Below, one piece after another: positions 7,745 to 40,347 of a stretch of DNA of 64,000 bases. The stretch's first letter is position 1. Each line of letters begins with the position of its first letter. The position numbers and the translations under genes were made by a program. The stretch lies in assembly GCF_016924755.1 (NCBI RefSeq), contig NZ_JAFFJX010000011.1:62001-126000 (forward strand). Reading direction: 5' to 3'. Under the pieces are notes generated by a model. That model was not told the DNA's origin, searched no databases, and worked only from the letters and a program-made list of their open reading frames with translations. The stretch is from Longitalea arenae. Its GTDB lineage: Bacteria > Bacteroidota > Bacteroidia > Chitinophagales > Chitinophagaceae.

Positions 7745-7915
7745 TAGATAAATTTTAAATGGTTAATGTGAATAAACTATTTAAAAGTTATCGAAACTTC
7801 CCTAAAGCACTTTGTCAATACGTATCATTTTGTTGCCTATTTGTTTCATTTGATCAAAAACAAAAATGGGCCGGATAGATATCCAGCCCGTTCTCATCAG
7901 TATCTACTTATATTG

Positions 7916-8000
7916 CGGAGAGAGAAGGATTCGAACCCCCGGACCTGTTACGGTCAACGGTCTAGAAGACCGCCGCATTCGGCCACTCTGCCATCTCTCC
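7916..8000 (-). tRNA. Class II tRNA with serine-type body and UCU anticodon
   Basis: All parts of a tRNA fold. The 7-bp acceptor is GGAGAGA/TCTCTCC. The D arm follows. The 5-bp anticodon stem is GCGGT/ACCGT with a 7-nt loop CTTCTAG. The 16-nt variable arm has a 4-bp stem GACC/GGTC. The T arm has GTTCGAATC. The discriminator is G73 and CCA is not encoded. Positions 34-36 read TCT, which would decode AGA (Arg). The long variable arm and G73 are serine features, while tRNA-Leu and tRNA-Tyr usually have A73. An 8-bp hairpin lies just 5' of the gene at 8006-8034. Gene call certain; amino-acid identity in conflict. Confidence 0.9.
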
Positions 8001-8207
8001 AGGTGGTGTGTGGCGGTTCCATCCCACCACACACGCAACTCTTAATGAGTAACCAACCATTATGAAATTACATTATATTTCTCTATCAAATCAATGACAG
8101 TCATCAGCGTTTAAGATGATCCTGGGCAAGGTTTTCATTGGCGGATCCTTATAAATTACACAGTTCAGGCAAATGAATAATTGCTGTTTAAACCTTACCG
8201 TCTTTTG

Positions 8208-8270
8208 CCTTATTTAAGGTTCTCATACGTGCGTCTTGATTTGATGAACAACATTATTTGAAGGCTAGAA
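8208..8270 (-). pseudogene. Remnant of a SulP/carbonic anhydrase junction
   Basis: Positions 8208-8230 are identical over 23 bp to 617-639, the start of the carbonic anhydrase gene including its ATG and first six codons. The next 35-40 bp (to about 8270) still resemble the end of the SulP gene with small indels. Reading from the ATG gives only 12 codons. This looks like a truncated duplicate of the junction, placed just after the kdp-linked histidine kinase. Confidence 0.55.
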
Positions 8271-8272
8271 CT

Positions 8273-9976
8273 CTATTTTACCACCTTAAACCGACAAAAA
8301 AAGTAACTGCCCCTGCCCGGCTTTGATTCTACACCAATTTCGCCATCCATCGCCTCTGTAAAATCCTTGCTGATGGCCAAACCCAACCCAGTGCCTTTTT
8401 TTTCATGAATGCCTGGCACGCGGTAAAACCGGTCGAAGATCTTTTGCTGTAAGGAGAAGTCGATACCAATCCCAAAGTCCTGCACACCCAGCTCAATGTG
8501 CTGTTCGTCCCGCTTATGGGCTTTTATGATTACCTGATCGTTCCGGGCTGAATAGCGGATGGCATTGGTAAGAAAGTTATTGATGATCCAGCTTGCTTTT
8601 TCTGCATCGGCCAGCATGGCTGGCAAGTTGTCTGAGACCTCTTGCTTAATATGAATATTCTTTTCTTTGGCGGCATTCTGTACGGCGGCCAATGCTTTAC
8701 TGATAATATCTGTTATTACCACCGGCTGCAGGTTCAATTGTATTTTACCGCTTTCTACCTGCGACAGATCAAGTAATTCGCTAAGGATGCGCAAGAGCCG
8801 CTGGTTATCTTCCTTCAGGCTCTGCACCAGTTCCTTTTGTTCTGTGGTCAATGTGCCGATGCGCTCATCTTCCAGCAGGCGCAGACTGAAATCGGAAGAA
8901 GCCAGTGGCGTTTTCAGTTCATGCGAGATGGTAGCTATAAAATTGGTCTTTGCCACATCGAGTTCTTTATAAGGCGTTATGTTCTTCAATACTATCACGT
9001 GGCCTGTCGTCTGTTCTTCCTGCTTAATTTCAATCTGTTCCTTAGTAAAATAATTCTCCCTATCGTTCACCACGATCTTGAAGGGCATGGCGTTTTCTTC
9101 CTTTGTAAGGAAAGAGAAAAGGTCGTTGCGCTGTTGAACATCCTCTTCTTTTCTACCTATGATATCTGCTTCCTTTACATTCAAGAGCTGCAAAGCCTGT
9201 TGATTCGCAAACAATACAATGCCGCTTTTATCAATGCCGATACTGGCATCCTTCAAAGAGTTAATAACGGTCTCGGCCCGCTGTTTTTCAAACATGATCC
9301 TGGCCAGGTTGCTATGCTCGTATTCATTCAATTGTTCGGCCATATCGTTAAAAGCTTTGGCGAGGTCGCCGAACTCATCCTTGCGGTCGAGGTGAATACG
9401 CTGGCTGTAATCTTTGTTGGCAATGGCCTGAATACCTTCGGTGAGCTTTGAAATGGGATTGGCGATCAAGCCGGGAAAATTTACCATGAAGGTAAAACCG
9501 ATCAAGAGGCACATAGTAATGATCATGGTGATGATCACTTTGGCATTTTCTATCGCTTGCTGTGAGGTCGCATTCTTTTCGCTGATGGCATCCAGGTTGA
9601 TCCGGATAACGCTGTTGACGTTTTTCTGCAGGGCAATTTTCAGCCCCATAGAATCGTCGTGCTGCAGGAATTGGTTGTAATCATGACGCAGGGCGCTGGT
9701 GACCGTCGTTTCGCCATACTCGGTAATATTGTTTTCCTGGGCAGCCAGGTTCTGCTCAAATATTGTCCGGGCACTATCCCGCTCTTTTTCCCAGGTGTTT
9801 AATGCATCAAGCATCTTGCGGCCATACGCTACGCTTTCATAATTATCTTTTAGCAGATCGCTCGACTCAGTACTGATCTTGTTGAAATAATAAAAACTTA
9901 CCCCGCCTACCAGCAGCAGGAGCACAAACAGGAAACCAACACCCAGGGCCAGTTTTGTTTTAAGTTTGATTGCCAT
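8273..9976 (-). CDS. Membrane sensor histidine kinase linked to kdp
   Basis: 567 residues. It has TM1 (about 10-30), a periplasmic four-helix-type sensor region, TM2 (about 150-170), HAMP (about 170-225), a PAS-like domain (about 235-335), HisKA with phospho-acceptor His in ATISHELKTPL (near 350), and HATPase with N, G1 (DFGIGI) and G2 (GTGLGL) boxes. ATG 9976 overlaps the KdpD-like stop as TGATG, so the two are translationally coupled. It probably supplies the kinase half of a split KdpD and phosphorylates the sigma-54 response regulator at 17062; that pairing is inferred. Confidence 0.9.
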   Translation of the reverse strand: MAIKLKTKLALGVGFLFVLLLLVGGVSFYYFNKISTESSDLLKDNYESVAYGRKMLDALNTWEKERDSARTIFEQNLAAQENNITEYGETTVTSALRHDYNQFLQHDDSMGLKIALQKNVNSVIRINLDAISEKNATSQQAIENAKVIITMIITMCLLIGFTFMVNFPGLIANPISKLTEGIQAIANKDYSQRIHLDRKDEFGDLAKAFNDMAEQLNEYEHSNLARIMFEKQRAETVINSLKDASIGIDKSGIVLFANQQALQLLNVKEADIIGRKEEDVQQRNDLFSFLTKEENAMPFKIVVNDRENYFTKEQIEIKQEEQTTGHVIVLKNITPYKELDVAKTNFIATISHELKTPLASSDFSLRLLEDERIGTLTTEQKELVQSLKEDNQRLLRILSELLDLSQVESGKIQLNLQPVVITDIISKALAAVQNAAKEKNIHIKQEVSDNLPAMLADAEKASWIINNFLTNAIRYSARNDQVIIKAHKRDEQHIELGVQDFGIGIDFSLQQKIFDRFYRVPGIHEKKGTGLGLAISKDFTEAMDGEIGVESKPGRGSYFFCRFKVVK

Positions 9977-11124
9977 CACGATAATATAATTATATCAAGA
10001 TCCTTTACCGATAAGGTTTTTAACAATTGGTTGAACAGGTTGGTCTTCAAAATTACCTGAAATAAGTTCAAATGCGGTTTGCCAATACAAATGGTGGTTA
10101 TCTTCTTATCAATAGCGGTTCGAATGATCTCGTTTGAAATACTTTTGCTTTTGACCTGAATCACTTCGGCCCCCAATTCTGTGGCTAATTTTAAATTGTT
10201 TATGAGGTGCCGCTGGGCAGCGAGCGGAATTTTATCCAGCTCTTCTTTAGGCGTTTGTACGTACAGCACAAACCAGTCGGCATTGTAGTAAGATGCCAGG
10301 CGACCTGTTTTCCTTATAATGCGTTGCGCCGTTTCATGGGAAGAAGAAATGCAGGCCAGGAACCGCTCGTGTCGCCATGTTTTGTTCTTAATGACCGTAT
10401 AATCTACTTTTCGTTCCACCTGGCCTGCTACTTCTTTAAGGGCCAGCTCGCGCAATTGAAGTATTTTTTCGGGTTGAAAGAAGTTTGTCAGTGCCTGCTG
10501 CACTTTGTGGTGGTCATAAATCTTTCCTTCCTGCAGGCGGGTGATCAGCTCCTGTGCCGTAAGGTCGATATTCACCACTTCATCGGCCATCTGCAAAAGC
10601 TTGTCCGGCACCCTTTCCTTTACTTCAAGGCCTGTTATTTGTTTCACATTATCATTGATACTTTCAAGATGCTGAATATTAATGGCTGTGATCACATCAA
10701 TACCTGCATCCAGGATCTCGATCACATCCTGCCAGCGCTTTTCATTTTTGCTGCCGGGAATATTACTGTGCGCCAGCTCATCCACGATCACCACGTCAGG
10801 ATGTAACAGCAAAACCGCCTGCACATCCAGTTCATCCAATTGCTTTCCTTTGTAAAAGACCTGCCGCCGTGGGATCAGTGGCAGGCCTTCTATCAATGCA
10901 TGCGTTTCTTTACGATTATGGGTCTCCACATAACCGACCTTTATATTTACCCCTTTACGCAGCAGATCGTGTGCTTCCTGCAACATCCGGTAGGTTTTTC
11001 CCACACCGGCGCTCATACCAATGTAGATCTTCAGTTTGCCGCGTGACAGCTTATTGGCCATCTTAAGGAAAGGCTGAACCTGTTGGTCTTTATCGTTGGG
11101 CATGCTCGTATTTTTAGAGGCCAT
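9976..11124 (-). CDS. kdpD: KdpD N-terminal sensor/USP protein without kinase domain
   Basis: 382 residues matching only the cytosolic N-terminal part of KdpD. It has the KdpD domain with Walker A-like GMSAGVGKT near residue 40 and VDELAH near 115, then a universal-stress-protein-like domain (about 250-380). The membrane, HisKA and HATPase parts of classical KdpD are absent. A separate histidine kinase starts 1 nt inside its stop. Split KdpD genes of this kind are common in Bacteroidota. Probable role: cytosolic K+/ATP or nucleotide sensing for kdp control. Confidence 0.9.
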   Translation of the reverse strand: MASKNTSMPNDKDQQVQPFLKMANKLSRGKLKIYIGMSAGVGKTYRMLQEAHDLLRKGVNIKVGYVETHNRKETHALIEGLPLIPRRQVFYKGKQLDELDVQAVLLLHPDVVIVDELAHSNIPGSKNEKRWQDVIEILDAGIDVITAINIQHLESINDNVKQITGLEVKERVPDKLLQMADEVVNIDLTAQELITRLQEGKIYDHHKVQQALTNFFQPEKILQLRELALKEVAGQVERKVDYTVIKNKTWRHERFLACISSSHETAQRIIRKTGRLASYYNADWFVLYVQTPKEELDKIPLAAQRHLINNLKLATELGAEVIQVKSKSISNEIIRTAIDKKITTICIGKPHLNLFQVILKTNLFNQLLKTLSVKDLDIIILS

Positions 11125-11181: not shown

Positions 11182-12270
11182 TTAAAAGCTCACTGCCGCT
11201 GAAAAAGTTACAGCAGTATTGGCGCCCGTAAGGCTTTCATTACTTTTTAAAAAGATCTCGTCTTTGCTGTTGAACATTTTTCCTTCAATACGCAGGGCAA
11301 TGTACTTTGCCGGCTGGTAATCAACGTTGGCTGAAAAACCAGCCGTTTTAAAACCATTCGGTGTGCCGGTTTTAACAATGACACCATTTTCATCGCTATA
11401 ATACTCACCGCGAACGGCAAAAGCCCAGTGATCAACCGGTGTATACCGCAGAATAGCCAATGGTGAGTACCAGGTATTCATATTGCTTTCACCCTTAGTC
11501 TTTTGTTCCTGTCCAACATCGAAACCAAGGGTCAATCCAATTTGATCGGTCAACTGAAAGATCCCATACAGGTTATGAAAATACCTCCAAAGCCTGGCAC
11601 TGTCTGGTTTATCGGTTCCTAAAAAGCTGCTATAGTTCAGGGTCAGTTTGTCGGTTGGTTTGAATTGCACCTGCGTTCCCCAGTTCATCAATGAATTACC
11701 CGCCACCCGTTGAATTCGTTGCCAGCCATTCAGTGCAAGTACGCTGAACGACCATTTGCCATTATCTGTTCCATAGGTAAGTTTTGCACCGCTTTCGTAA
11801 TAGGGAGAAGTTTCAGCTACCAGGCTCCTAGTCAGCGCCCAGCAATCTTTACTAATGGCGCTTTCAAAACCAATATGCGACGGCATGATACCCATATCGA
11901 GCCATAGATTTTTGGTACGGCTTAGTTTATAGCCTACATTTGCTTCAAATACATTTTTTAATACCCCCGGTTCAGCAGCATAGTTTGCATTCATGTATGT
12001 TCCCACCGCCAGGGCAATATTGGCTCTTATACGTTCAGCAGTATAATTTCCCCTAACAAACGCAAGGTTCACATTGAATTCATTGCTGCGGTTATGACTG
12101 TAAATAAAGCCCGGCCGGTTGTGATCTTTCGGTTTTGCAAAATCATAACTATAATATACTTCTGCATAGCCACTAAAACTTACCTGTCCTTTGTTTTCGC
12201 TTTTTGTAGTATCCTGTGCAAATCCCGCAGCTGCATACAATAAAGCAGCTACCATTAAAATTCTTTTCAT
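11182..12270 (-). CDS. Outer-membrane beta-barrel porin in kdp operon
   Basis: 362 residues with a signal peptide cleaved after about residue 18 (AAAGFAQ). Repeated amphipathic strands follow, ending in a C-terminal aromatic (AVSF), typical of outer-membrane barrels of the BBP2/phosphate-porin type. It lies between kdpC and KdpD on the same strand with short spacers. In Bacteroidota such porins are often found in kdp operons; the likely job is K+ entry through the outer membrane when K+ is scarce. Ion selectivity cannot be read from sequence. Confidence 0.85.
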   Translation of the reverse strand: MKRILMVAALLYAAAGFAQDTTKSENKGQVSFSGYAEVYYSYDFAKPKDHNRPGFIYSHNRSNEFNVNLAFVRGNYTAERIRANIALAVGTYMNANYAAEPGVLKNVFEANVGYKLSRTKNLWLDMGIMPSHIGFESAISKDCWALTRSLVAETSPYYESGAKLTYGTDNGKWSFSVLALNGWQRIQRVAGNSLMNWGTQVQFKPTDKLTLNYSSFLGTDKPDSARLWRYFHNLYGIFQLTDQIGLTLGFDVGQEQKTKGESNMNTWYSPLAILRYTPVDHWAFAVRGEYYSDENGVIVKTGTPNGFKTAGFSANVDYQPAKYIALRIEGKMFNSKDEIFLKSNESLTGANTAVTFSAAVSF

Positions 12271-40088: not shown

Positions 40089-40090
40089 CG

Positions 40091-40167
40091 AGGTTCCGAG
40101 CAGATTCGAACTGCTGTAAAAGGTTTTGCAGACCTCTGCCTATCCGCCAGCTGGCGGACACGGAACC
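40091..40167 (-). pseudogene. tRNA-Cys copy with D arm replaced by a palindrome
   Basis: Acceptor stem, anticodon arm with GCA, T arm and U73 are all identical to the intact copy. The ten bases GCCGAGTGGC that form the 5' side of the D arm are replaced by the perfect 16-bp palindrome TCCGCCAGCTGGCGGA. The D stem and G18-G19 contacts are therefore lost, so normal tRNA folding is unlikely. It is downstream of the intact copy and could be co-transcribed unless the terminator between them is fully efficient. Confidence 0.75.
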
Positions 40168-40274: not shown

Positions 40275-40276
40275 GG

Positions 40277-40347
40277 AGGTTCCGAGCAGATTCGAACTGC
40301 TGTAAAAGGTTTTGCAGACCTCTGCCTAGCCACTCGGCCACGGAACC
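40277..40347 (-). tRNA. tRNA-Cys (GCA)
   Basis: Complete class I cloverleaf: acceptor GGTTCCG/CGGAACC, D arm GCCGAGTGGCTAGGC, anticodon loop CTGCAAA with GCA at 34-36, T arm with GTTCGAATC, discriminator U73 as required for cysteine. CCA is not encoded. Confidence 0.95.

Follow-up and report, generated by a model that had tools for sequence, protein, structure and literature searches.

The window analysed here is a stretch of 64,000 nucleotides from the genome of Longitalea arenae (contig NZ_JAFFJX010000011.1), and its subject is a tRNA gene that joins a serine-type body to the UCU anticodon of an arginine tRNA. ARAGORN called positions 7915–8000 of the reverse strand as a tRNA with anticodon TCT, and Infernal matched the same strand to RF00005 at 7916–8000 (50.5 bits, E 4.7e-9). 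The additional position, 7915, holds one C that follows G73; the full CCA end is not encoded. The features of the gene are listed below, where the parent is the closest tRNA gene in the genome.

7915–8000 (-): class II (serine-type) tRNA gene with a UCU anticodon (ARAGORN, RF00005 and comparison with the parent).
7942–7955 (-): long variable arm GACCGUAACAGGUC with a 4-bp stem, in which a U·G of the parent is replaced by C-G.
7962–7968 (-): anticodon loop CUUCUAG, in which A38 has become G, so that C32-G38 and U33-A37 can pair.
7964–7966 (-): anticodon UCU (nucleotides 34–36); the parent has UGA, the changes being G to C at nucleotide 35 and A to U at nucleotide 36.
7982 (-): D-loop nucleotide 20 (hand numbering), C here, U in the parent and A in the tRNA-Arg(UCU) of the genome.

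All 24 of the 24 pairs in the cloverleaf, as drawn, are standard. The structure includes a 14-nucleotide variable stem-loop of four pairs, G73 and a 7/5 acceptor/T-stem arrangement. A sequence-only reading of this DNA had drawn attention to the long variable arm and to G73, both of which are seen in the cloverleaf, and had derived UCU from the loop CTTCTAG, with which the ARAGORN anticodon call agrees. The gene has the long variable arm, G73, 7/5 branch and body of a tRNA-Ser, with UCU in place of a serine anticodon. It has the UCU of tRNA-Arg(UCU), C35 and U36 included, with C20 in place of A20 and the 14-nucleotide stem-loop in place of a short variable loop. In its sequence features it also combines serine identity elements with a non-serine anticodon, as bacterial allo-tRNAs do, on a 7/5 rather than an 8/4 or 9/3 acceptor branch. 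The element at 7915–8000 is an intact class II tRNA and a genuine hybrid-identity gene.

The closest relative within the source genome (G000; its nine congeners are G001–G009) is tRNA-Ser(UGA) at G000:C9:987–1072, which is 92% identical to the UCU gene and is itself identical in the close congener G007. Descent from tRNA-Ser(GCU), from which UCU is a single mutation away, was rejected, the tRNA-Ser genes with GCU and CGA being only 75% identical to the UCU gene. Seven substitutions separate the copy from its parent, at nucleotides 16, 20, 35, 36 and 38, in the variable arm and in the T stem (positions assigned by hand). On these identities the UCU gene arose by duplication of tRNA-Ser(UGA) and took on an anticodon for arginine, and the comparison establishes its parentage.

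The likeness to the parent ends ∼3 nucleotides beyond the tRNA gene, and thus the flanks either were not copied or have since been replaced. This boundary would suit a dead duplicate, that is, a promoterless tRNA-Ser copy, untranscribed or unprocessed and drifting, in which UCU arose as an accident of drift. We regard this explanation as rather unlikely. Against it stands the retention of all 24 pairs and of the conserved sites checked, despite seven substitutions, an outcome that simulated random sets of seven substitutions reached with a probability of 0.009; when only the four changes outside the anticodon loop were counted, the probability of keeping the pairs was 0.14. This test is a weak sign of use, given that broken copies would go unnoticed (detection bias). 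The number of G-U pairs is likewise the same as in the parent: the T stem has one more and the variable arm one fewer.

Recognition by seryl-tRNA synthetase (SerRS) is reported to depend on the variable arm, together with G73 and tertiary shape, the anticodon not being read; bacterial arginine identity is ascribed mainly to A20, with C35 (PMC9976931). The SerRS determinants are retained in the copy. The main determinant for arginyl-tRNA synthetase (ArgRS), A20, is missing from it (C20) and is present in the tRNA-Arg(UCU) of the genome, in which one SerRS scored over the cut-off. In yeast, an engineered tRNASer(UCU) is reported to have yielded transformants only once it had been weakened by G9A (PMC6827378), and a version with G26A to have placed Ser at Arg codons at a level of 3.0%, against ∼0.2% in the control, primarily at AGA (PMC8473984). 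Given that the parent is a tRNA-Ser, that the SerRS determinants are kept, that A20 is absent and that the reported yeast tRNASer(UCU) misreads AGA, serine charging of the copy is likely if it is transcribed; SerRS charging, as proposed in the sequence-only reading, stands by inference from these points. That ArgRS instead accepts the copy through C35 and U36, so that it would be a real arginine tRNA giving extra AGA capacity beside the intron-bearing gene described below, is highly improbable. C35, U36 and G73 do fit the reported arginine set (PMC9976931), and the canonical gene depends on intron splicing, but the body of the copy is that of tRNA-Ser.

A census of tRNA genes in the genome returned 56 matches, and no canonical UCU gene was found in it (150 of 298 candidates scored). 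By contrast, a congener tRNA-Arg(UCU) used as the query matched contig C35 of the genome with its 5' and 3' halves separately. The two exons lie at C35:139385–139419 and about C35:140074–140112 (ends read by eye), 654 nucleotides apart, the gene being interrupted after nucleotide 34; the whole corresponds to 11386–12113 of locus L152 (G000:C35:139385–140112). Split by an insert of ∼650 nucleotides, this gene is missed by tRNA finders, here by both ARAGORN and Infernal. The insert in G000 holds an intact open reading frame (ORF) of 138 amino acids that matches PDDEXK_5 (E 2.7e-28), a family that we take to include intron homing endonucleases. The G007 insert has a sub-threshold match to the group I family RF00028 (E 3.1e-9; 40.6 bits, the gathering score being 50); for the longer G000 insert no match to group I was obtained at E ≤ 1, and a scan of five loci at default thresholds found nothing. 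The same arrangement was read in the sequences of G007, G005 and G009 and is indicated by a split match in G004, and the gene is intronless in G001, G002, G003, G006 and G008. On this evidence the tRNA-Arg(UCU) of the source genome is split by a putative group I-type intron, which carries a homing-endonuclease-like ORF, and, provided that the gene splices, AGA is served by an ordinary arginine tRNA. Reassignment of AGA to Ser, or loss of tRNA-Arg(UCU), was rejected once the two-exon gene had been found. The case also illustrates an annotation trap, in which an isotype mismatch mimicked the loss of an arginine tRNA while the real gene was hidden by an intron.

Two further observations concern tRNA-Arg(UCU) in congeners. 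In G003, a second copy of the 3' half (L126, about 2108–2147, G003:C15) lies downstream of the intact intronless gene, behind a small ORF, and resembles a tRNA-integration scar. In G001, tandem degenerate tRNA-Arg-like fragments (L158, 1–480, G001:C63), in which a TCCCGAC...GTCGGGA palindrome takes the place of the anticodon arm, directly precede the intact UCU gene.

AGA accounts for 63 of 14,929 codons in 34 hand-picked ORFs of the window; in 400 kb sampled from the genome, it makes up 10.5% of the Arg codons (507 of 4,808). The sequence-only reading had described AGA as an ordinary Arg codon, used three times near the start of rpmF. The three codons are present, at 7, 16 and 17 of rpmF (L32, PF01783; 61474–61656, + strand), and the meaning holds, given that AGA aligns with R and K; common use does not, at 10.5% of Arg codons. 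Seven of the eight genes tried could be aligned with their congeners, giving 14 AGA sites in six genes, and the 68 congener residues at these sites were R (37), K (24), H (4) and Q, N and V (one each), with no S. Across 88 ortholog pairs between G000 and G007, AGA faced a Ser codon once in 166 cases. AGA is still an arginine codon in this genome.

There is also no clear sign of AGA avoidance. The same 88 pairs contain 166 AGA codons in G000 and 167 in G007; AGA in G000 faced AGG in G007 29 times, and the reverse was observed 20 times. Selection against AGA was thus not seen in these orthologs, as would be expected of a dead duplicate. In 400-kb samples, which are not orthologous and differ in G+C content (highest in G000), AGA occurred 4.74, 5.10, 5.67 and 5.25 times per 1000 codons in G000, G007, G003 and G005, respectively.

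The expression context of the copy is defined by three further features.

7868–7889 (-): intrinsic-terminator-like hairpin, then ATTTTTGTTT, downstream of the tRNA.
8002–8034 (-): strong hairpin with arms at 8006–8016 and 8024–8034, ending 5 nucleotides before the tRNA.
8273–9979 (-): HAMP-PAS histidine kinase gene, lying 272 bp upstream of the tRNA in the same orientation.

The TATTTTTG box that lies 4 nucleotides upstream of the parent gene is absent upstream of the copy, a point in favour of a dead duplicate. The best upstream promoter score of the copy is 7 of 9, a value that 495 of 1000 shuffles also attained; an exact TAnnTTTG occurs within 80 bp upstream in 21 of 59 tRNA regions. The terminator scan found one candidate, where shuffles gave a mean of 0.4 (sd 0.7), and its position directly after the tRNA speaks against a dead duplicate. 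A simple terminator scan found none between the kinase gene and the tRNA. By the same kind of scan, two of seven congeners (G001 and G006) have a terminator shortly after the kinase gene, and G000 is thus not exceptional in lacking one. With a terminator just after the tRNA and none toward the kinase, a read-through transcript would end right after the tRNA.

The kinase gene is accompanied by a KdpD-sensor gene, a porin gene, kdpC, a P-type ATPase gene (kdpB by position) and kdpA. The same-strand kinase, the terminator after the tRNA and the absence of one between them in the scan would all accommodate a tRNA expressed with the kdp-linked kinase, for example under potassium limitation, and serving purposeful insertion of Ser for Arg at AGA, and natural hybrid-identity tRNAs are reported in bacteria (PMC11415595). 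Nevertheless, such a function is very unlikely: no tRNA lies within the 1.5-kb flanks of the seven congener kinase loci, and the gene was found in a single species.

The hairpin at 8002–8034 (z -3.7) has no T run. Its location just upstream of the tRNA, and a copied unit that is almost exactly the tRNA gene, could point to a non-translational origin or role, as the scar of a mobile-element integration or a small-RNA source. We consider this barely probable, since the hairpin is single-copy in the genome (≤3 mismatches) and no integrase or phage family was found among the twelve window proteins scanned, most window ORFs lying outside that scan.

When the anticodon arm was folded alone, the copy gave -8.5 kcal/mol with a 3-nucleotide loop, and the parent gave -4.1 kcal/mol with an open loop. 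A closed anticodon loop is again compatible with a dead duplicate. A 32:38 change is reported to alter decoding by tRNA-Ala, and in a natural mistranslating tRNASer decoding seems to be reduced by G33 (PMC11415595); by analogy, we infer that G38 may act similarly in the copy.

The distribution of the gene was examined at several taxonomic depths. Exactly one Ser(UGA)-like gene (≥85% identity) is present in eight of the nine congeners, and all eight read UGA; G008, which is 61% complete, gave no such match. A Ser-body pattern (≤3 mismatches) matched 227 of 294 genomes of the family and, among the matches listed, all but the window gene end in the UGA loop, CTTGAAA. In 395 genomes of the class, four matches to an exact class II UCU pattern were obtained, of which the window gene alone is a tRNA; L177, L178 and L179 were dropped as containing no class II UCU tRNA. 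A pattern scan of 84,980 species, each represented by one genome, returned five hits. Four of these are class II UCU tRNAs, and the counts are to be read as lower bounds. The fifth match, L161, was dropped because no tRNA lies there, as were L125, L131 and L175. The four tRNAs belong to unrelated metagenome-assembled genomes (MAGs) from Bdellovibrionales, an alphaproteobacterium, Pseudomonadales and Peregrinibacteria. A normal tRNA-Arg(UCU) was found in three of these MAGs, and none was found with the pattern used in the fourth, a 1.4-Mb genome. Among 2.9 million viral contigs, one matched and carries a class II UCU tRNA among 11 tRNAs.

Like the copy, the four MAG tRNAs and the viral one combine a long variable arm with UCU. 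The MAG tRNAs, however, share at most 68–74% identity with the Ser tRNAs detected in the same MAGs and thus, unlike the window gene, are not fresh copies; the loop of these other class II UCU tRNAs is CTTCTAA with A38, whereas the copy has G38. In the material searched, the UCU copy is private to one species, which is also in keeping with a dead duplicate. The viral tRNA (L164, 429–525, on a contig of 135,821 bases) has, by reading, U as its discriminator.

The interpretation that we favour, at slightly better than even probability, is a young duplicate of tRNA-Ser(UGA) that bears UCU, is probably charged with serine if transcribed and is potentially an AGA-to-Ser missense tRNA, though a weak or silent one. 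Any transcript would be charged by the single SerRS, with ArgRS finding no A20. Transcription would be slight and mostly due to read-through from the upstream kinase gene to the adjacent terminator, and decoding would be poor, the loop being partly closed through C32-G38. Ser would then reach at most a low level at AGA, in competition with the normal arginine tRNA, and may be nil in standard conditions. The copy is thus probably serine-accepting and probably weak or silent.

Several observations weigh against this interpretation. Of 59 tRNA upstream regions, 41, that of the copy included, have promoter scores of ≤7, and the missing promoter box thus argues weakly for low expression. Modified nucleotides do not enter the fold energies; t6A37 would work against a U33-A37 pair, and the G38 loop may decode normally. 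Possible hints in the opposite direction are an uneven count of AGA-Lys differences between the orthologs, with Lys in G000 in 34 cases and in G007 in 21, and the value of AGA/(AGA+AGG) in the 400-kb samples, which is lowest in G000 (0.439, compared with 0.480 in G007, 0.517 in G003 and 0.487 in G005). Moreover, a lack of AGA depletion is equally expected of a very young active tRNA.

The partial reading of AGA as Ser raised in the sequence-only reading is possible only, a very weak or silent gene fitting about as well; that reading could not take account of the competing intron-hidden tRNA-Arg(UCU), the lack of a recognisable promoter, the possible C32-G38 closure and the undepleted AGA in orthologs. 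Quite improbable, in our estimate, is a natural self-damped tRNA-Ser(UCU), coexpressed with the kinase, held in check by C32-G38 and by tRNA-Arg(UCU) and inserting Ser at some AGA codons conditionally.

The favoured interpretation, a weak or silent missense tRNA, can be compared with known systems as these are described in the cited sources. The engineered yeast tRNASer(UCU) likewise has a serine body, UCU, AGA as its main target and a need for damping to be tolerated (PMC6827378, PMC8473984). It is, however, laboratory-made and eukaryotic, with damping at 9 or 26, whereas the candidate damping change of the copy is G38. Allo-tRNAs, reported from Clostridia, Proteobacteria and Acidobacteria, are serine-type tRNAs that occur in nature and whose anticodons are mostly non-serine and include those of Arg (PMC7609411), and some insert Ser in Escherichia coli (Mukai 2017, via review PMC7609411). 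They have 8/4 or 9/3 acceptor branches, whereas the window gene is a 7/5 copy of the genome's own tRNA-Ser. The tRNAProX of Streptomyces and Kitasatospora is similarly a natural bacterial tRNA with a mismatch of body and anticodon and a rare anticodon-loop change, but it has a proline body, its loop change is A33 rather than G38, and it forms a family described with a ProRSx (PMC11415595). Nematode nev-tRNAs also join a class II body to a class I anticodon, with low expression reported; by contrast, they are eukaryotic, number >100 genes and decode as leucine, Gly and Ile anticodons being named (PMC4033280). The window gene is therefore of a known kind, a serine-type tRNA with a foreign anticodon, yet its 7/5 architecture is unlike that of allo-tRNAs. 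No bacterial 7/5 tRNASer(UCU) was found named in titles and abstract openings of the open-licence literature, which is not proof that none has been printed. If the tRNA works, it would be a natural example of a bacterial serine tRNA of ordinary shape that renders a sense codon ambiguous alongside the normal tRNA; such ambiguity, if true, is the intermediate state required by ambiguity models of codon reassignment.

Other observations concern the window and further tRNA loci. A repeat of 53–56 bp (86% identical) lies at the 3' ends of two genes, at 8208–8260 and 617–672 of the window. A second tRNA-Cys copy at window positions 40090–40161, in which the D arm is replaced by the palindrome TCCGCCAGCTGGCGGA, sits beside an intact tRNA-Cys at 40275–40347. 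A similar palindrome is held by a tRNA-Phe remnant, and tRNA-Ala and tRNA-Lys remnants adjoining intact tRNAs hold another, TCCCGA...TCGGGA. Finally, a compact array of nine divergent tRNAs (L082, G000:C11:482600–483700) and one of three (L083, C11:117500–118100) are phage-like in appearance and include a second ACG tRNA-Arg.
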